From assembly GCF_006363815.1 (NCBI RefSeq), contig NZ_RRYT01000004.1, forward strand, positions 1 through 64,000: a DNA stretch of 64,000 nt. The letters run 5' to 3'. Under the pieces are notes generated by a model, which saw nothing but the letters and a program-made list of their open reading frames with translations, ran no database searches and was not told the origin of the DNA. Of the stretch, positions 7,344 to 46,884 are shown piece by piece. Every line of letters starts with the position of its first letter. Position 1 is the first letter of the stretch. This DNA is from Thermomonospora catenispora. GTDB taxonomy: Bacteria; Actinomycetota; Actinomycetes; Streptosporangiales; Streptosporangiaceae. The translations under genes and the position numbers were made by a program.

Positions 7344-8978
7344 TCATCCCCGGAATCCGTCGTCGTCGGAGAATCCCGGGCGATCCGGCGGCGCCTGGTC
7401 CGTCCAGGGCGTGGCGTATCGGGGGCGGCGCCGCGGCCCGCCCACGGTCCCCCCGGGGCCTCCGGCGGCGGGTTCGGCCCGGCGGGCGTCGGGGAGGGGC
7501 GGCGGGTCCGGCGGCGGGGGACCGTGGCGGACCCCCGCCGTCACCGGTTCGCGCGCCCGTTCCGGCCGGGGAGGGGGCTCGGCGGGTCCGGCCGAGGCCG
7601 CGCGCCGGGTCGGCAGGGTCAGCGCGCTGATCACCGCCCCGGTCAGCACCAGCGCCGCGCCCACCAGCAGCCCCACCGACGCCCCGTGCCGGAACGCCTC
7701 CGCGCCGCTTTGCCCGGACTGGGCGGCCTGGCGCTCCAGGGCGTCGACCACCACGCCCAGCACCGCGATGCCCAGCGCCGCCGACACCTCGCGGACCACG
7801 CCGATGACGCCTCCGGCCACCCCCGCCCGCTCGTCGGGGATCGCTTTCAGCGCGTACATCGCCAGCGGCATCGTCAGCGCCGACCCGATGCCGCACAGCG
7901 CGATCCCCGGCATCAGCTCGGCGAACCCGTCACCGGCCCGCAGCGTGGTGAAGGCCGCCATCCCGCCCGCCAGCAGCAGCATCCCGGCGGCGACCGTGGG
8001 CCGCGCCCCCGCCTTGGCCGCCAGCACGAACGACACCGGCGTCAGCACCAGCACCAGCAGCGCGGGAGGGATGTAGGCCAGCGCCGCCGTGGTGGGCCGG
8101 AACCCCAGCACCGTCTGCATGAACAGCGCCGAGTAGTACATCACCCCGTTGAACCCGATGCCCCACAGCATCGAGGAGGCCAGCCCGCCGGCGAACACCC
8201 GGTTCCGCAGGAAGCCCAGGTCGATCATCGGGTGCGGCGCCCAGTGCTCCACCAGCACGAACGACGCCGCCGCCACCGCCGCGATCCCCAGCATCGCCAG
8301 CACCGCCGGGTCGCCGTAGCCGATCTCGCCGCCCGCGTGCAGCGCGTACACCAGCGTGAACAGCATGGTCGCCGACAGGATCACGCCCGGCATGTCCAGC
8401 GGCGTCCGCACCTTGAGGGCGTGGGCGGGCAGCAGCGCCAGCCCCAGCGCGATCACCAGGACCCCCACCGGCACGTTGATCAGGAAGATCCAGCCCCAGT
8501 GCCAGCGCTCCACGATGAACCCGCCGACGCTGGGGCCGCCCGCCATCGCGCAGGCCAGCGAGCCCAGCCACACCACCTGCCCGAGGGCGCGCTGCCGGTC
8601 GTCGCGGCCCACCGTGATCGCCACCAGCAGGGCGGGCAGCGCCAGCGCCGCGCCCGAGCCCTGCACCACCCGGGCGCCGATCAGCACCGCGGCGGAGCCG
8701 GCGACCCCGGACATCGCGGAGGCGGCGGTGAACACCGCCATTCCCGTGATGAAGATCACGCGACAGCCGTAAAGGTCGGCCAGCCGTCCTCCCGCCACCA
8801 TCAGGCAGGAGAACATCACGATGTAACCGACCGTCACCCAGCGCAGTTCCGCGGCGCTCAGCCCCAAATCCTCACGGAGGGTCCGCTGCGCGATCGCGAC
8901 CACCGAGTTGTCCATGGTGATCATGAACGCGCTGACGGCGACCACCGCCAGGACCCATCCGTATCGGCCGCGGGTCAC
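7344..8978 (-). CDS. MFS exporter, DHA2 (EmrB/QacA) type
   Basis: A 544-residue drug:H+ antiporter of the 14-helix DHA2 family. Motif A is seen as GGRLADLYGCRVIF, motif C-like glycines as LACAMAGGPSVGGFI, and the N-terminal TM1 carries the family D1 motif (ITMDNSVVAIA). The last about 75 residues are a Pro/Arg-rich disordered tail after the final helix. It diverges from the PKS gene across a 346-base intergenic region that holds a perfect 20-bp palindrome, so both may be controlled from there. Likely role: export or self-protection linked to the PKS product, by location only. Confidence 0.88.
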   Translation of the reverse strand: MTRGRYGWVLAVVAVSAFMITMDNSVVAIAQRTLREDLGLSAAELRWVTVGYIVMFSCLMVAGGRLADLYGCRVIFITGMAVFTAASAMSGVAGSAAVLIGARVVQGSGAALALPALLVAITVGRDDRQRALGQVVWLGSLACAMAGGPSVGGFIVERWHWGWIFLINVPVGVLVIALGLALLPAHALKVRTPLDMPGVILSATMLFTLVYALHAGGEIGYGDPAVLAMLGIAAVAAASFVLVEHWAPHPMIDLGFLRNRVFAGGLASSMLWGIGFNGVMYYSALFMQTVLGFRPTTAALAYIPPALLVLVLTPVSFVLAAKAGARPTVAAGMLLLAGGMAAFTTLRAGDGFAELMPGIALCGIGSALTMPLAMYALKAIPDERAGVAGGVIGVVREVSAALGIAVLGVVVDALERQAAQSGQSGAEAFRHGASVGLLVGAALVLTGAVISALTLPTRRAASAGPAEPPPRPERAREPVTAGVRHGPPPPDPPPLPDARRAEPAAGGPGGTVGGPRRRPRYATPWTDQAPPDRPGFSDDDGFRG

Positions 8979-40203: not shown

Positions 40204-40647
40204 GACATCTCCCGTCCTGGTTCCCGTCCCGGGCGACCGTGCCCCTATCGGGTTGGATGCCGTCCACGCACCGGAAGATGTCGCCGAAGACCTGACCGAA
40301 CGGTGACATTCGTGCTCGCGTTCGTGCTCGCGCCGGGCGGCGGAGGGGAGGCGCGGCGCCGGCCACGGCGTGCTCAACGTCCATGCCGCGTCCCATGTCA
40401 CGGGCGTCCGAGCGGCGGGCGGCGACGGCGCCGCCGGCCCATGTCCGGGGCATCGCGGAATCCGCCCGGAGGCCGTGCCGGACACCGAATGCCGATCATG
40501 GTCTCCCGGGATCGGTCCGCCGCCTCGGGTCCGGACGGCGCTCGTCCACCGGACGCGGGCCGACGGTTCCGGCCGTCCGCCCGCCGGTCGGCCGAGCCGG
40601 GACGGAAGCGGTGGCCGCCCGTGCCTCGGCCCGGTAGGGTGGGCGGT
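40204..40647. other. Non-coding stretch between DM13 gene and Mn riboswitch
   Basis: No credible gene. It contains a 12-bp tandem pair (TTCGTGCTCGCG at 40309-40320 and 40321-40332) and a 31-base segment (40452-40482) that matches the kinase gene at 29252-29282 with two differences. Promoters for both flanking genes must lie here. Confidence 0.5.
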
Positions 40648-40763
40648 GGCGAAGGGGAGTAGTCCCGATGCGCTGAGTGGTCGACATGCTGGCGGTCTCG
40701 CCCGAGGCGGGACGGCCCGGCCCTCAGGCCGCGGCCCGTGTCGCGGTGGACGAGACCTTCGGC
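40648..40763 (+). ncRNA. yybP-ykoY manganese riboswitch
   Basis: Two invariant loops of this aptamer are present: GGGGAGTAG (40654-40662) and GACGAGACC (40749-40757). They are closed by a P1 helix, CGAAGG (40650-40655) with CCTTCG (40756-40761). The class binds Mn2+ and switches on Mn exporters. It stands 130 bases before a UPF0016 transporter gene, a known target of the class. A strong hairpin follows. Confidence 0.85.
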
Positions 40764-40773
40764 CTGGTCACAG

Positions 40774-40792
40774 GCGCCCTCGATGAGGGCGC
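40774..40792 (+). promoter_or_regulatory. Hairpin downstream of the Mn riboswitch
   Basis: GCGCCCTC-GAT-GAGGGCGC is an 8-bp perfect stem with a 3-base loop, 12 bases after P1 of the aptamer. It may be part of the expression platform. No U-tract follows. Confidence 0.5.
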
Positions 40793-40890
40793 GCACGTCC
40801 GACCGGGCCGAGTCGGTCTCCCCGCGCCCGCCCCCGGCGCGTTCGCAGGCCGGAGCGGTCCGGTCCCGAGGGGAAAGGCCGCCGCTGCGA

Positions 40891-41475
40891 ATGACCGCCA
40901 CCCTGGTCACGTTCTGCACGACGTTCGCCGTCATCTTCCTGGCCGAGCTGCCGGACAAGAGCATGTTCGCCTCCCTGGCCATGGGCACCCGGATGCGCCC
41001 GCTGTGGGTGTGGCTCGGCACGACCAGCGCGTTCGCGATCCATGTGGGCATCGCCGTCGCCGCCGGCAGCGCGCTGTCGCTGCTGCCCCGCCCGCTGGTC
41101 GGGACGGTGGCCGCGGCGCTGTTCGCGTTCGGCGGCTATGCGCTGCTGCGCGGCGGCGAGGAGGACGACGACGATGTGGCCGTCCGCGCGCCCGTGCTGG
41201 GCGCATGGGCGACCTACGCCACGGCGTTCACCGTGGTGTTCGTCGGCGAGTGGGGCGACCTGACACAGATCGCCACCGCGAATCTGGCGGCCACCCGGGA
41301 GCCGCTGCCGGTGGCGGCGGGCGCGCTGCTGGCGCTGATGACCGTCTCGGCGCTCGCGCTGCGGGCCGGCCGGTTCCTCGCCGACCGGGTTCCGCTCCGG
41401 GTCGTGCGACGGATCGGCGGCCTCGTCATGCTCGTCCTGGCCGTCTGGACGCTGGCCGAGGCGGTGCTGGGATGA
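40891..41475 (+). CDS. UPF0016/TMEM165-GDT1 family Mn2+ (Ca2+) exporter
   Basis: A 194-residue membrane protein of the GDT1 family with the duplicated signature in both halves: FLAELPDKSMFAS and VFVGEWGDLTQIATANL. About six helices are seen, with an acidic cytosolic loop EEDDDDVAV in the middle. Family members export Mn2+ (or exchange Ca2+/H+). The yybP-ykoY riboswitch in its leader supports Mn2+ as substrate. ATG 40891 is preceded by AGGGGAAAGG with long spacing. YibE/F follows after 57 bases and is probably co-transcribed. Confidence 0.9.
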   Translation: MTATLVTFCTTFAVIFLAELPDKSMFASLAMGTRMRPLWVWLGTTSAFAIHVGIAVAAGSALSLLPRPLVGTVAAALFAFGGYALLRGGEEDDDDVAVRAPVLGAWATYATAFTVVFVGEWGDLTQIATANLAATREPLPVAAGALLALMTVSALALRAGRFLADRVPLRVVRRIGGLVMLVLAVWTLAEAVLG

Positions 41476-41532
41476 CCGGCCGCTCCGGGGCGCCGGGCCC
41501 CGGACTCCCCCCAGTGGACCGAGGAGGTGCTC

Positions 41533-43101
41533 GTGGGCGCTGACCACTCCCACTCCCATCACCACCGGACGGCGCCGGCCCCGCCGGGCGCGGTGCGGGC
41601 CATGCTGGCGGTCATCGTTCCGCTGGCGGTGGCGACGCTGGCCGCGTTGATCTGGATGTGGCCGGACGGGAACGCCCCCGCCTCCGCCGAACAGGCCCCG
41701 GAGCCGGTGAAGATGACCCGGGTCACCGGCACGGTCACCGCGATCGCCTACAAGGACTGCGCGCAGGCCGGGGAGTTCGAGGGCGACTGGCTGACCCCGA
41801 CCCCCGCGCCCGGCCGCCGCTGCGGGGACGCCACCGTGCGGCTGACCTCCGGCCCCCAGGAGGGCGGCACGGTGAAGGTCGCGCTGCCCACCGGCCCCGG
41901 CTCGCTGGAGTACTCCGTCGGCGACAAGGTGGTGCTGCTGCACATGCCCTCCGGAGCCGACGGCGGCGGCGGGCAGTACCAGCTCACCGACCACGACCGG
42001 ACGAACGGGATGTGGCTGGTCGGGGCGGCGTTCGCGCTGGCGGTGATCGCGTTCGGCCGCTGGCGCGGGGTGACCGCCCTGGTGGGGCTGACGATCACGT
42101 TCGTGCTGCTGGTGAAATTCCTGATCCCGGCGATCCTGGAGGGGCGGCCGCCGCTGCTGGTCGCCATCGTCGGCTCCGCGGCGATCATGCTGGCGGTGCT
42201 GTACCTGACCCACGGCGTGACGATGGCGACGTCGATCGCGGTGGTCGGGACGCTGGCCAGCCTGGCGCTCACCGGGGTGCTGGCGTCGGCGGCGATCGGG
42301 TTGACGCATCTGTCCGGCCTGGCCGACGAGAGCTCCCTGAACCTGGGCCTCAGCTACGACCTCAACCTGCAGGGCCTGCTGCTGGCCGGGATCATCATCG
42401 GGTCGCTGGGCGTCCTGGACGACATCACCATCACCCAGGCCGCCACGGTCGGAGAGCTGGCGCGCGCCAACCCCGCCTACGGGTTCGGGCGGCTGTACCG
42501 GGCGGCCGCCCGGGTCGGCCGGGCGCACATCGCCTCGGTGATCAACACGATCATCCTGGCGTACGCGGGCTCCTCGCTCCCGCTGCTGATCCTGATCAGC
42601 GTCGGTGAGCAGCCGCTGGGGCAGGTGCTGACCGGTCAGGTGCTCGCCGAGGAGATCGTCCGCAGCGTGGCCGGCACCCTGGGCCTGATCGCCGCCGTCC
42701 CCGTCACCACCGCCCTGGCGGCCGTGATCAGCTCCCGCAGCGTCCCCGCCTCCCACGAAGAACACGAGGGGCCGCACGAGGAGACGTCCACCGGGCCGCA
42801 CGACCGGACGGCCGGCGGACCGCAGGGGGACCGGCGCGATCGGCCGCACGACGGGCCGCCTGAGGAGCCGCCCAGAGGACGGCACGCCCGACGGCACGGC
42901 GAAGAGCACGACGGGCGACACGAGGGGCCCTACGACGTGCCCTATGAGAGGCCGGGCCGGTACGACCGGCGGGACGACGGGCGGCACGAGAGGCATGAGA
43001 GGAACGAGAGGTACGCACCCTTCCCGCCCCGTCCCCGTCCGCCGGTCGAGGACGCGGAGCTGCCGCCGCCCGGCTGGCCGTACACCGACCGGCGCGAGTG
43101 A
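41533..43101 (+). CDS. YibE/F family membrane protein with His-rich ends
   Basis: A 522-residue protein. The N terminus starts GADHSHSHHHR, then TM1, an extracytoplasmic OB-like region (VTGTVTAIAYKDCAQAG...GRRCGDATVRL with two Cys), and about seven helices typical of YibE/F (LGVLDDITITQAATVGELARANP). From about residue 405 the tail is disordered and full of His, Asp, Glu, Arg and Gly (for example RGRHARRHGEEHDGRHEGP). GTG 41533 fits GAGGAGG. Function of YibE/F is unproven; the His-rich ends and the neighbouring Mn exporter suggest metal handling. Confidence 0.85.
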   Translation: MGADHSHSHHHRTAPAPPGAVRAMLAVIVPLAVATLAALIWMWPDGNAPASAEQAPEPVKMTRVTGTVTAIAYKDCAQAGEFEGDWLTPTPAPGRRCGDATVRLTSGPQEGGTVKVALPTGPGSLEYSVGDKVVLLHMPSGADGGGGQYQLTDHDRTNGMWLVGAAFALAVIAFGRWRGVTALVGLTITFVLLVKFLIPAILEGRPPLLVAIVGSAAIMLAVLYLTHGVTMATSIAVVGTLASLALTGVLASAAIGLTHLSGLADESSLNLGLSYDLNLQGLLLAGIIIGSLGVLDDITITQAATVGELARANPAYGFGRLYRAAARVGRAHIASVINTIILAYAGSSLPLLILISVGEQPLGQVLTGQVLAEEIVRSVAGTLGLIAAVPVTTALAAVISSRSVPASHEEHEGPHEETSTGPHDRTAGGPQGDRRDRPHDGPPEEPPRGRHARRHGEEHDGRHEGPYDVPYERPGRYDRRDDGRHERHERNERYAPFPPRPRPPVEDAELPPPGWPYTDRRE

Positions 43102-43142
43102 GCCGAGTACGGGCGAGCCCGCGGATCGTCCGTGCGGCGCGC

Positions 43143-43598
43143 CTATGCGGTGGACCGCTCCCGGCGGCGGGCGGACCCGCTCCGCCGCCACAGCAGCGCG
43201 TCCAGGCCGAACCGCCCGCTGCCGGTGGCGGCCAGCAGCAGGGCGGTCGCCCCGATGAGGAGGACCAGCTCGAAGCCCCCTTCGTTGACGAAGACCCCGT
43301 TGTCGCGGTGCACGAACCAGTACGCCCCCGCCATGTCGAGGACGATCAGCACCCCGAAGACCGGGACCAACAGCCCGAGGATCAGGGCGAGACCGCCCAG
43401 GATCTCCACCCAGGTGGAGTAGTGGGCGGCCAGGGAGGGGAACGGGATGCCCATGTCCGCGAACCCCCGGGTCACGCTGTCGAGTCCGATGTCGGTGAGT
43501 TTCTGCAGCCCGTGGGCGAGGAGGATCGTCCCGAGGGCCAGTCGGCCCAGCAGGAGTCCGAAGTCGCGCAGCACGGGGAAGCGATCGGCGAAGTTCAT
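43143..43598 (-). CDS. DoxX family membrane protein
   Basis: A 151-residue four-helix protein of the DoxX family (LLLGRLALGTILLAHGLQKL; HYSTWVEILGGLALILGLLVPVFG; GGFELVLLIGATALLLAATG). The GLQKL and VEILGG motifs are characteristic. ATG 43598 is fixed by GGAGAGGA. It converges with the YibE/F gene. DoxX homologues occur in thiosulfate:quinone oxidoreductase and in the mycobacterial membrane-associated oxidoreductase complex; the role here is open. Confidence 0.85.
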   Translation of the reverse strand: MNFADRFPVLRDFGLLLGRLALGTILLAHGLQKLTDIGLDSVTRGFADMGIPFPSLAAHYSTWVEILGGLALILGLLVPVFGVLIVLDMAGAYWFVHRDNGVFVNEGGFELVLLIGATALLLAATGSGRFGLDALLWRRSGSARRRERSTA

Positions 43599-43773: not shown

Positions 43774-44622
43774 CTACCCGGATCGTCCCTGCTCACGCAC
43801 CGGGGACGAGGGCAGGTCGGCGGGGGTGCGCGGATCGGGGGCCCCGGGCGGCAGGACGCCGTGGCGGCGCAGCACCCGCCCGACCGCCGGTCCCCAGGCC
43901 GGGCGGAGCCGGGCCGAGCGCAGCAGGGCCTCGTCGGCGAGCAGGTCGGCGGCCCTCCCGGCGTGCAGGCGGCCGTCGGCGAGGACCGCGACCTCATCGG
44001 CCCAGCGGTGCGCCAGGTCCACGTCGTGGGTGGACGCCACGATCGTGGTGCCCGCCGCCCGCAGCTCCTCCAGCGTCGTCAGCAGCGCCTCCACCCCGGC
44101 CGGATCCAGCCCCGCGGTCGGCTCGTCCAGCACCAGCACCGCCGGGCGCAGCGCCAGCGCCCCCGCGATCGCCACGCGTTTGCGCTGGCCGAACGACAGC
44201 AGATGGGCGGGCCGGTCGGCCAGCTCGGTGATCTGCATGGCCGCCAGCGCCTGGGCGACCCGCGCCCGCACCTGCTCGACCGGCAGCCCCAGGTTCAGCG
44301 GACCGAACGACACGTCCTGCCGGACGCTCGCCGAGAACAGCTGGTCGTCGGGGTCCTGCAGCACCAGCTGGACGCGGGTCCGCAGCTCGGTGAGCCCGCG
44401 CCGGGTGTAGGACACCGGCGACCCCCGCCACAGGATCCGTCCGCGGGCGGGGCGCAGCCCTCCGGTCAGCAGCCGCAGCAGCGTCGTCTTGCCCGCGCCG
44501 TTCGGCCCCAGCAGCGCCAGCGTCCGCTCCGCCGGCACGTCCAGCGACAGCCCGGTGAAGACCGGCCGTTCGCCCTCGTAGGCGAACGAGACCTCCCGGG
44601 CGCTGAGGATCGGCGCGGTCAC
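43774..44622 (-). CDS. cbiO: Cobalt ECF transporter ATPase CbiO
   Basis: A 282-residue ABC ATPase: Walker A LLGPNGAGKTTLLRLL, Q-loop VLQDPDDQLFSASVRQDVSFGP (the DDQLF form typical of ECF-type ATPases), signature LSFGQRKRVAIAGALA, Walker B VLVLDEPTAGLDP, H-loop STHDVDL. It is the last gene of cbiMNQO, with GTG 44622 22 bases after cbiQ. As in other Co systems a single CbiO probably forms a homodimer. It acts at the inner membrane face to energise Co2+ uptake for cobalamin. Confidence 0.92.
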   Translation of the reverse strand: MTAPILSAREVSFAYEGERPVFTGLSLDVPAERTLALLGPNGAGKTTLLRLLTGGLRPARGRILWRGSPVSYTRRGLTELRTRVQLVLQDPDDQLFSASVRQDVSFGPLNLGLPVEQVRARVAQALAAMQITELADRPAHLLSFGQRKRVAIAGALALRPAVLVLDEPTAGLDPAGVEALLTTLEELRAAGTTIVASTHDVDLAHRWADEVAVLADGRLHAGRAADLLADEALLRSARLRPAWGPAVGRVLRRHGVLPPGAPDPRTPADLPSSPVREQGRSG

Positions 44623-44644
44623 GGGCTCCTCCGGGCGGGGCGCG

Positions 44645-45385
44645 TCACGGCAGACGCTCCACGGCCAGCGCGAGACCGGCCGCCAGCGCGGCCGGCATCG
44701 GCGCGGCCAGCAGGAACGGCGTGCGCAGCGGGATCGGCTCGACCAGGACCGTCAGCGCGCCGGCGTGGCCGCGTCCGGCCAGGCCGGCCTCCAGCCGGCG
44801 GGCGCGGTCGAACGAGCGCACGAACACCGCCGAGCCCAGGCCGCCCAGGGAGCGCCAGGTCGCCCGGAGCGACCGGGTGCCCAACCGTCCGGCCTGGGCG
44901 TCGCGGATCCGCCGGGCGGTGTCCAGCACCACGAACAGCATCCGGTAGATCAGCGCCGCCACCTCCACCAGCGCCGGAGGCACCCCGATCCGCACCAGCC
45001 GCGGCAGCGTGTCGGCCAGCGGGGTCGTCCCGGCGAACAGCAGCTGGCACAGCACCGCGGCCGTGCACCGGGCCAGCACCTCCCCGGCCCGGCGCGGCCC
45101 GTCGTCGGCCCAGGCGATCCCGTCCGCGCCCACCGTGATCAGGAACGCTGGCGATCCGGTCAGCGCGAACCCCAGCGGCGTCCGGGCGGCCCGCACCAGC
45201 GTGCGCACCGGGATCCGCGCCCAGCACACCGCCACCGCCGCGGTGACCAGCGCCGTCACCACGGCGCCCGGCCAGGGCGGCAGCGTCAGCGCGCACCCCA
45301 GCAGCCCGCCGGCCAGCAGCGCCTTGGCGGCGGGGTGGTGCCGCCGCCACGGGCTGCGGTAGGCGGCGGCGTCGATGGCGAGCAC
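44645..45385 (-). CDS. cbiQ: Cobalt ECF transporter transmembrane protein CbiQ
   Basis: A 246-residue T-component with four to five helices and the two ATPase-coupling Ala-Arg-Gly type motifs: RRIRDAQAGRLG and RRLEAGLAGRGH. Begins DAAAYRSPWRRHHPAAKALLAGGLLGCAL, a classic CbiQ N terminus. GTG 45385 abuts the cbiN stop, so translation is coupled. Confidence 0.9.
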   Translation of the reverse strand: MLAIDAAAYRSPWRRHHPAAKALLAGGLLGCALTLPPWPGAVVTALVTAAVAVCWARIPVRTLVRAARTPLGFALTGSPAFLITVGADGIAWADDGPRRAGEVLARCTAAVLCQLLFAGTTPLADTLPRLVRIGVPPALVEVAALIYRMLFVVLDTARRIRDAQAGRLGTRSLRATWRSLGGLGSAVFVRSFDRARRLEAGLAGRGHAGALTVLVEPIPLRTPFLLAAPMPAALAAGLALAVERLP

Positions 45386-45700
45386 TCAGCCGTCGCCCCG
45401 GGGGGCGGCCGCCCGCCCGCGCCGGGTGCGGACCACCCCCAGGCAGTAGCCGAGCACTCCCGCGCCCAGCGCCGCCTGCAGCGCGAACAGCCCCGACTCG
45501 ACCTCCCCCGACGGGGGCTCGTACAGCGGGCCGAACCAGGGCTCATAGCCGGGATCGTTCTCGGCGATCGCCGCCTCCGCCCGCCCGTCGGCCCCGGCGA
45601 ACGGCTCTTCCCCGCCGTCTCCCGCGCCGATCGCCAGCGGCGTCACCGCGAGCGCCGCCACCGCCAGCATGAGCAGCGCAGTGACCATACGGCCCTTCAT
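45386..45700 (-). CDS. cbiN: Cobalt transporter auxiliary subunit CbiN
   Basis: A 104-residue two-helix protein: N-terminal helix (MVTALLMLAVAALAVTPLAIG), an acidic loop (GADGRAEAAIAENDPGYEPWFGPLYEPPSGEVES) and a C-terminal helix (LFALQAALGAGVLGYCLGVV). The AAIAENDPGYEPWF segment is the CbiN hallmark; its loop helps load Co2+ into CbiM. ATG 45700 follows GAGGAGG. Confidence 0.9.
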   Translation of the reverse strand: MKGRMVTALLMLAVAALAVTPLAIGAGDGGEEPFAGADGRAEAAIAENDPGYEPWFGPLYEPPSGEVESGLFALQAALGAGVLGYCLGVVRTRRGRAAAPRGDG

Positions 45701-45782
45701 TCCGTCGCCTCCTCGCGATCGCGCGATGCGTCCGGTCCGATCACGGCGGCCGATCCCCGCGGCGCGCTCCTCACACGCCCGG

Positions 45783-46460
45783 TCACGCCGCCGCCTCCGT
45801 GCGGGCGGGGCGCAGCACGCCCAGTCGGATCAGGTCGGCGGCGGCGGAGGTGCGCAGGAGCCGGACGAGGAGGACGGTCAGCAGACCTTCGCTGACCGCC
45901 AGCGGGATCTGGGTGACCGCGAAGATCCCGCCGAACTTGGCCAGCGCCCCCGCCACGCCGGACTCGGCGTCGGGAAAGGCCAGCGCGAGCTGGACCGAGG
46001 TGACGCAGTAGGTGGTCAGGTCGGCGACGAACGCCCCGGCGAACACCGCCGGCAGCAGGCCGAACCGCCGCATCGACAGGTAGGCCGCGAAACCCGCCCA
46101 CGGGCCGGCGATCGCCATGGAGAACACGTTGGCGCCCAGCGTGGTCAGCCCGCCGTGCGCCAGCAGCAGTGCCTGGAACAGCAACGTGACGGTGCCCAGC
46201 ACCGCCATCGCCGGCGGGCGGAACAGGACCGCGCCGAGCCCGGTGCCGGTGGGATGCGAGCTGCTTCCGGTGACCGACGGGATCTTCAGCGCGGACAGCA
46301 CGAAGCAGAACGCCCCGGACGCGCCCAGCAGCAGCCGATCCTCGGGGGAGTCCTTGAGCCGGCGGTTGAGCGTCACCGCGCCGTGGACGAGGAACGGGGC
46401 CGCGGCCACGGACCAGGCGACGGCATGGGAGAGGGGGAGATGGCCCTCGGCGATGTGCAC
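45783..46460 (-). CDS. cbiM: Cobalt ECF transporter substrate-binding subunit CbiM
   Basis: A 225-residue S-component starting GTG 46460 with (M)[15 protein letters not shown]; the His at position 2 is the metal ligand of CbiM/NikM proteins, which fixes the start. Later conserved parts: [18 protein letters not shown] (second ligand region) and [14 protein letters not shown]. The upstream leader is a cobalamin riboswitch, which identifies cobalt as the metal. First gene of cbiMNQO. Confidence 0.92.
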
Positions 46461-46507
46461 GGGCGGACACCAGACCTTTCCAGCACCTCGTGGACGGTGG
46501 TCGAGCG

Positions 46508-46670
46508 CCGTGGCCGGTCTCCTGGCTGACGGGTTCGCCCCGCCGCTCCACCTTCCCAGGCGTGATCGCCCAGTGGCCTCCGTGCGGAGCGAGCGACGGG
46601 AAATCCCGATCACAGTGGCGAGGGCCGCTCCGGTCTTGCACCGGATTCCCGAACACCACGGCCCGACCAG
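46508..46670 (-). ncRNA. Cobalamin riboswitch controlling cbiMNQO
   Basis: On the minus strand the conserved order is GGTGCAAGACC (46642-46632), CGCCACTGT (46620-46612), and the B12 box AGCCAGGAGACCGGCC (ending near 46512). The start codon follows about 50 bases after the B12 box. The class represses when adenosylcobalamin is bound. Confidence 0.9.
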
Positions 46671-46884
46671 CTTAGCCATACCTGCACAGATGTACAGATA
46701 TGGGGATACGGATCTCTGGCACGGCGGACAGATGCCCTCCGGCCCTCGCCCGCATCGATCGTCCGCCCGACGAGAACGCCCTGTCGCTCATTTCATGAAC
46801 TAATCGGCACGTCGTGGCATCTCCCCCATAGGGTGATCATGACCGTCGTTCACTCTCATGCGGCGTCGGGCGCCGAGGAGGAAG
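46671..46884. promoter_or_regulatory. Divergent promoter region of cbiMNQO and the second kinase
   Basis: An AT-richer stretch (46675-46720, 46790-46850) carrying both promoters. It includes a 16-bp imperfect palindrome CTGCACAGATGTACAG (46682-46697) just upstream of the riboswitch, a candidate operator. The GAGGAGGAAG RBS of the kinase ends it. Confidence 0.45.

Follow-up and report, generated by a model that had tools for sequence, protein, structure and literature searches.

Positions 40,648 to 43,101 of a 64,000-nucleotide stretch of Thermomonospora catenispora DNA (referred to as the window; assembly GCF_006363815.1, contig NZ_RRYT01000004.1, positions 1 to 64,000) hold an RNA leader of the yybP-ykoY type, a gene for a GDT1/UPF0016-type cation/proton antiporter and a gene for a membrane protein of the YibE/F family. 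Comparison with related genomes makes it fairly probable that this locus is a Mn2+-responsive export operon to which a YibE/F protein handling divalent metal at the membrane has been added. The analysis shows the RNA class and its set of target genes, the conserved gene order, the conserved residues of YibE/F and the statistical proximity of YibE/F genes to zinc-uptake genes elsewhere. The features of the locus are the following.

40648..40763, + strand: yybP-ykoY-type (Mn2+) riboswitch aptamer, placed by covariance models R2 and R1
40758..40812, + strand: putative anti-P1 helix (expression platform), with 12 bp possible in the window
40891..41475, + strand: GDT1/UPF0016-type cation/proton antiporter of a variant subfamily (Pfam PF01169)
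41533..43101, + strand: YibE/F protein of 522 residues (PF07907), with a GTG start chosen by comparison with relatives
41533..41598, + strand: N-terminal His motif MGADHSHSHHH, with 5 His in the first 22 residues
42742..43098, + strand: low-complexity Pro/Arg/Glu/Asp/His tail of 119 residues, delimited by composition, with a PPPGW motif near its end

The aptamer consists of a P1 helix with strands GGCGAAGG and CCTTCGGC, the loop GGGGAGTAG, a helix GUCC/GGAC and a P3 helix with the internal loop CGACATGCTGG. The segments closing P1, GGGGAGUAG and GAGACCUUC, are both present in the window. We take these segments to be hallmarks of the yybP-ykoY class, as we do the GGGGAGTAG-type and GAGACCTTC segments, which also precede four cyanobacterial GDT1 genes. 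A covariance model (R2) trained on 23 leaders that precede divergent GDT1 genes (approximately 32 to 41% protein identity), all from other genera, placed the leader at exactly 40648 to 40763 with 54.6 bits and an E value of 1.1e-9, as the only match in the window at E ≤ 1. The second model, R1, whose training leaders include that of the window, scored the latter at 70.7 bits and revealed no further copy in the genome. Both models therefore place a yybP-ykoY aptamer where the initial annotation had seen one, starting at position 40648 ahead of the exporter gene.

Scanning with the Rfam model of the yybP-ykoY riboswitch, RF00080, gave no match at E ≤ 10 in positions 40450 to 41050 (601 nucleotides), where nothing reached the gathering cut-off of 45 bits, and no match at E ≤ 0.001 in the T. 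catenispora genome. At the gathering cut-off, RF00080 recognized none of 12 related loci, though all 12 have the leader; at E ≤ 10, it matched 1 of 20 further related loci, at 18.4 bits, and left 19 unmatched. The leader shares with RF00080 a P1 that has the GGGGAGUAG loop and a 3′ strand reading GAGACCUUC, as well as an internal loop in its second leg, and it stands before genes of the Mn-exporter type, but it is an actinobacterial variant lying below Rfam detection. The class defined by R1 is present in 57 of the 296 genomes of our phylum sample.

Of 63 loci, 46 have the segment AGGGGAGTAG, with at most one mismatch, no more than 450 nucleotides ahead of the stretch matched to GDT1; the occurrence in L022 looks like chance. 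Leaders that contain both P1 segments were collected and comprised 48 distinct sequences; 47 stem from loci that match GDT1, and the remaining one (L058) precedes a Na/Ca exchanger gene. In an alignment of 38 of these leaders, both P1 segments are invariant by selection and hence provide no evidence. Paired cells amounted to 98.7% of the alignment, and two-sided pair changes numbered 6 (two each in helices 2, 3 and 4; none in P1), in comparison to 2.4 in shuffles.

Twenty-nine riboswitch loci were fetched for identification of the downstream genes, and 27 were read, the two others lacking the motif. The genes behind the R1-class RNA encode GDT1 (15 loci), TerC (5), cation P-type ATPases (3) and Na_Ca_ex proteins (2), accounting for 25 of 27 loci in the phylum sample. 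The other two targets were an M50 peptidase and one gene (L28) that is probably a wrongly chosen open reading frame (ORF). At L256, the riboswitch class appears to precede the M50-type peptidase gene (1612-2814, + strand), an unusual target for a Mn riboswitch. Cation P-type ATPases and Na/Ca exchangers are Mn-riboswitch-type targets. According to PMC13274385, mneA and terC are such targets also. The combination of GDT1, TerC, cation P-type ATPase and Na_Ca_ex genes makes Mn2+ by far the likeliest ligand of the leader RNA.

The leader also contains a candidate expression platform. The sequence TTCGGCCTGGTC at 40758 to 40769 overlaps the 3′ strand of P1 and could form a helix with GACCGGGCCGAG at 40801 to 40812. 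An alternative helix of at least 9 bp is available in 35 of the 38 leaders, which are related, versus 17.6% of 3,800 shuffled controls. A helix of this kind, sharing the 3′ strand of P1, would provide what a switch needs.

The product of the first gene matches PF01169 with 134.2 bits (cut-off, 27) in two stretches corresponding to the repeats of the family, in support of the exporter gene that the initial annotation had placed behind the aptamer. According to the abstract of PMC7380456, one or two copies of the motif E-x-G-D-(K/R)-(S/T) characterize GDT1/UPF0016 proteins. The window protein is like TMEM165, Gdt1p and the cyanobacterial Mnx in its two PF01169 repeats, and like most screened bacterial members in its riboswitch control. 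It differs in its motif copies, ELPDKS and EWGDLT, each of which deviates from the consensus at one position, as do ELPDKT and EWGDLT in the four relatives that have the operon. The first motif, ELPDK(S/T), is common to the window GDT1 and to riboswitch loci L236 and L244, delineating a variant GDT1 subfamily. Comparison of GDT1 with solved structures returned weak matches to enoyl-CoA hydratase (E, 0.004 to 0.006), which we attribute to chance. In a screen reported in PMC7380456, 328 of the 333 bacterial strains that encode UPF0016 have it under yybP-ykoY control; the association of the riboswitch with GDT1 is therefore ordinary.

The second gene encodes a protein matching PF07907 (YibE_F) with 232.9 bits (cut-off, 27.2) over model positions 2 to 240 of 241. 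Its start at GTG 41533, which lies just downstream of GAGGAGG and follows another in-frame GTG at 41527, is supported by the N termini of relatives, confirming an earlier placement of the gene 57 bases after the exporter gene; residues are numbered from this start. The predicted layout comprises the N-terminal His motif, one transmembrane (TM) helix, a beta-rich region, a TM domain and a C-terminal tail. By the positive-inside rule, the N terminus would be cytoplasmic. At least 3 His are found in the 40 residues before the first TM helix in 60 of 125 aligned YibE/F proteins, some of whose starts may be placed too far upstream. The His cluster noted earlier at the N terminus is thus a motif common in the family. 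Ten positions (R156, H227, D297, T299, Q302, H332, N338, T339, Y344 and E374) are conserved at 88 to 100% in the 125 sequences. Among them, H227 (95%), D297 (100%), H332 (96%) and E374 (99%) are candidate metal ligands, their location in the membrane being judged from sequence.

The tail had been described as a 115-residue stretch rich in His, Asp and Glu. A long tail containing His is indeed present, but it comprises 119 residues, is richer in Pro, Arg and Glu (22 P, 21 R, 17 E, 13 G, 11 H and 11 D; 9% His) and is lineage specific. The median length of the C tail among aligned YibE/F proteins is 32 residues. The tail of Thermomonospora echinospora (L002) has 95 residues with 13 His, and those of L004, L005 and L035 are short; the PPPGW motif is common to L002 and L035. 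As many as 10 His per 115 residues are also found in two further ORFs of the window, and some other YibE/F proteins have shorter His-rich tails, such as that of L122 (9 His in 80 residues). The tail was rejected as a conserved metal-binding element, since it is variable and resembled by that of a single relative with the operon. The N-terminal motif is the better part of the earlier argument from His content.

The window protein matches the YibE/F family (PF07907; Transporter Classification [TC] 9.B.141) over the length of the domain and differs by its position in a Mn-riboswitch operon and its unusually long C tail. A Streptomyces coelicolor member is listed under TC 9.B.141, in class 9, in a section of PMC3924187. 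Among the matches listed, we found no functional study of the family in the open-access literature. When viral contigs were searched with six peptides from the window protein, no relative was detected.

GDT1 and YibE/F are encoded on the same strand and are separated by 57 nucleotides. The order leader-GDT1-YibE/F was found in five genomes, with gaps of 57 nucleotides in the window, 54 in T. echinospora, 15 in Actinomadura hibisca (L004), 10 in Actinomadura kijaniata (L005) and 56 in G098 (L035/L095); L002 apparently comes from the same genome as G067 (L040/L100). Scanning positions 40400 to 43300 of the window for terminator-like and sigma-70-like sites, to the exclusion of other promoter types, revealed neither. 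Short gaps in a shared orientation across five genomes, and a window scan that detected neither terminator- nor promoter-like sites, make it likely that YibE/F is co-transcribed with GDT1. In Actinomadura sp. J1-007 (L003/G520), the leader and GDT1 are present in a genome that has no YibE/F match. Among 120 sampled genomes of the window's own family, YibE/F occurs in 35 and GDT1 in 112.

We fetched 140 YibE/F loci from Actinomycetota (34 from the own family and 106 from the phylum sample). Besides the window, riboswitch matches with E < 1e-9 were obtained near YibE/F at three of these (L095, L100 and L118); weaker matches, the best with an E value of 0.0023, were treated as chance. L095 and L100 represent the leader-GDT1-YibE/F operon again. 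At L118, from another genus of the same family, the riboswitch (7369-7469, + strand) precedes a Na_Ca_ex gene (7347-8636) divergent from YibE/F, and the profile matches of the two proteins are 144 nucleotides apart. A general pairing of the riboswitch with YibE/F was rejected in view of the 3/140 loci. The operon combining the riboswitch, GDT1 and YibE/F was seen only in the genus of the window and in two Actinomadura species, which alone amounts to weak guilt by association.

A wider association emerged from the genes surrounding YibE/F, which were clustered without preselection and ranked by the number of families, 29 in all, in which they occur. Within 2.5 kb, the leading clusters were ABC (ATP-binding cassette) ATPases (6 families; a large superfamily), ZnuA (6), Peptidase_M23 (5) and Fur (5), all others being found in at most 3 families. 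Profile searches detected ZnuA within 6 kb of YibE/F at 2 of 34 own-family loci, 6 of 106 phylum loci and 3 of 30 loci from a second phylum, that of a Chloroflexi metagenome-assembled genome, and Fur-family genes at 2 of 34, 5 of 106 and 4 of 30 loci, respectively. Pfam checks were made on ten and more of the Actinomycetota ZnuA and Fur genes. Fur is also present at 7 of the 11 ZnuA loci (L092, L162, L172, L182, L290, L291 and L293). In L291, Fur is divergent from a one-strand znuA-znuC-znuB-YibE/F cluster. L092 (173-8253) carries genes for Fur, ZnuA, an ABC ATPase, a znuB-type permease and a DUF1980 protein together with two tandem YibE/F genes. In comparison to ZnuABC zinc/manganese uptake loci with Fur, beside or inside which YibE/F is found in other genomes, the window operon has no znu gene; the znuA match of the T. 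catenispora genome and a Fur match are on a different contig, C23.

The background expectation was calculated for one 12.7-kb interval per genome from ZnuA counts per genome, with rounded genome sizes and some genomes having two YibE/F genes. In Actinomycetota, ZnuA was observed in 6 genomes versus 0.59 expected of 109 [P(≥6) = 3.6e-5], a probability uncorrected for the number of families viewed and relating to a hypothesis formed on the same loci. G151, which has ZnuA and Fur near YibE/F by position and was not fetched, would be the seventh ZnuA genome (P = 3e-6). For Fur in the phylum, 5 were observed versus 0.89 expected (P = 0.002), with a density extrapolated from 46 genomes. The second phylum served as a test set afterwards: ZnuA was found at 3 of 30 loci versus 0.11 expected [P(≥3) = 2e-4], the three loci representing at least two lineages (77% and approximately 50% identity). 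No clear Mn riboswitch was detected at these 30 loci (best match, E = 0.017). As most YibE/F loci have neither gene nearby, the link with ZnuA and Fur is an enrichment and not a rule.

These surveys had the following scope. YibE/F was recognized by a simple ORF caller in 126 of 140 loci and by profile search in all 140 and in all 30 loci of the second phylum. YibE/F matches that were not fetched are G145 (below the cut-off), G151, G297, G334, G383, G512 and the second G219 copy; G000 was not fetched a second time. The neighbor scans left out ORFs of <90 residues or with masked bases, the 14 unrecognized loci and, for the phylum list, 11 Streptomyces-type loci. Dropping proteins of >900 residues removed one entry from the own-family list, leaving 109 of 110, and six entries from that of the phylum, leaving 145 of 151. 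The second phylum contributed 92 neighbors from 26 of the 30 loci. Neighbors of the sigma-70, SerRS and ThiC types (the last named by eye) were disregarded because they reflect local synteny within one or two families.

Together, these results lead us to propose the following mechanism. High cytosolic Mn2+ would stabilize the P1 helix of the aptamer, as expected for this riboswitch class, and a stable P1 would exclude the alternative helix formed by its 3′ strand. Expression of the GDT1-type antiporter would rise, and Mn2+ would be exported, as expected for its family. YibE/F, presumably co-transcribed with GDT1, may act as a polytopic membrane protein in moving a divalent metal, either Mn2+ or Zn2+, or in presenting it at the membrane, with the His-rich N terminus capturing the metal on the cytoplasmic side and H227, D297, H332 and E374 forming a path. 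Co-transcription, the response to Mn2+, the topology, the substrate and the direction of transport are the inferred elements of this scheme. Since ZnuA is found near YibE/F above background in two phyla, with a Fur-family gene at 7 of the 11 loci, YibE/F is probably a Zn/Mn-handling membrane protein, which is here placed with Mn export; the proximity of znuA and Fur is as indicative of Zn as of Mn. The initial proposal that YibE/F handles Mn2+ or another metal survives mainly through this proximity, which recurs across several families and extends to a second phylum; the argument from the tail proved weak and the riboswitch pairing narrow.

Several observations weigh against this proposal. No ZnuA gene was found within 6 kb of YibE/F in 32 of 34, 100 of 106 and 27 of 30 loci, 40 of the 170 loci being shorter than 12 kb. 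A Pfam scan of the nearest neighbors in the phylum (n = 145) returned sigma-70 15 times and M23 10 times, in comparison to 3 each for ZnuA and FUR. Own-family neighbors (n = 109) included no dominant metal family, with CorA found twice, and neither ZnuA nor FUR was among the 25 families shown for the 92 second-phylum neighbors, whose ORF list missed some genes of these two kinds. The company of YibE/F gives contradictory indications of the direction of transport, since it includes znu uptake genes in some genomes and GDT1 export genes in others. YibE/F adjoins GDT1 in just 3 of 30 fetched GDT1 relatives, and by position the R1 matches of the phylum sample lie beside a listed YibE/F only in the window. 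The count of YibE/F genes beside UPF0016 or the riboswitch, which the initial annotation had called for, thus established that the pairing exists and that it is narrow. A riboswitch that works at the level of translation would not necessarily extend its control to the second gene, and the accessibility of the Shine-Dalgarno sequence, predicted by folding leaders with or without P1 (L003 being left out), changed inconsistently with P1: it rose from 0.18 to 0.43 in the window, decreased in L002 and barely changed in L004, L005 and L035. An AlphaFold2 model of YibE/F made with the sequences of the window, L002, L004 and L005 was poor (predicted local distance difference test [pLDDT], 42; predicted template modeling score [pTM], 0.26), and comparison of YibE/F with solved structures gave no match at E ≤ 1.

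The blindness of RF00080 to the window leader and to nearly all related loci would also be expected if the leader were some other structured RNA, for example one with a different ligand. We consider this very improbable, since the presumed hallmark segments recur before cyanobacterial GDT1 genes, the helices outside P1 covary and nearly all downstream genes are of the Mn-riboswitch type. It is rather doubtful that YibE/F is a passenger fixed behind GDT1 in one small clade, bearing no relation to Mn, and that its proximity to znu genes reflects unrelated clustering. Restriction of the GDT1-YibE/F pairing to that clade, the Actinomadura genome that has GDT1 and the leader with no YibE/F match, and the commonest YibE/F neighbors, mostly due to synteny of one or two families, are in line with such a passenger. 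The recurrence of ZnuA in 6 families and of Fur in 5, their varied gene orders and their presence in a second phylum argue against it, as do the tight GDT1-YibE/F gaps in five genomes.

The main functional rival, which we judge unlikely, is that YibE/F, instead of transporting metal for the needs of the cell itself, delivers Mn2+ or Zn2+ to exported metalloenzymes, as proposed for TerC. Delivery would fit the uptake (znu), export (GDT1) and M23 (zinc) peptidase settings alike. The M23 peptidase cluster, labeled from the Pfam match of one member, occurs at 10 loci in its 5 families and, as noted above, accounts for 10 of the 145 neighbors, although M23 genes are common and 8 of 11 loci with the cluster come from two families (f48 and f46). 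One TM helix and a predicted beta-rich region, taken as extracytoplasmic from the sequence and a low-confidence model, precede the TM domain. TerC is encoded behind the same riboswitch class in 5 of 27 loci, and TerC proteins metalate exoenzymes according to PMC10550928.

A second metal locus lies beside the operon. Genes for a cobalt energy-coupling factor (ECF)-type system (cbiM, cbiN and cbiQ, together with an ABC ATPase) occupy positions 43774 to 46679 on the minus strand behind a cobalamin riboswitch (46495-46675, minus strand; 89.2 bits), and a DoxX gene is located between them and YibE/F.

The novelty of the present analysis lies in the wider link of YibE/F to znuA/Fur neighborhoods. 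On balance, we favor the view that YibE/F (PF07907), which is found in several phyla, is an unrecognized class of Zn2+/Mn2+ transporters or a membrane metal-delivery protein that has been drawn into export operons with a Mn riboswitch in some actinomycetes and into loci of the Fur/znuABC type elsewhere. Since RF00080 misses the actinobacterial class that R1 detects, Mn-controlled genes of actinomycetes are probably under-annotated. The YibE/F family could also matter for pathogens, a YibE/F pair of Staphylococcus aureus being listed in PMC13227979 in a table of genes for which fitness in human blood was decreased. With a Mn-riboswitch operon and znuA/Fur neighborhoods in two phyla, YibE/F becomes a directly testable family of metal homeostasis.

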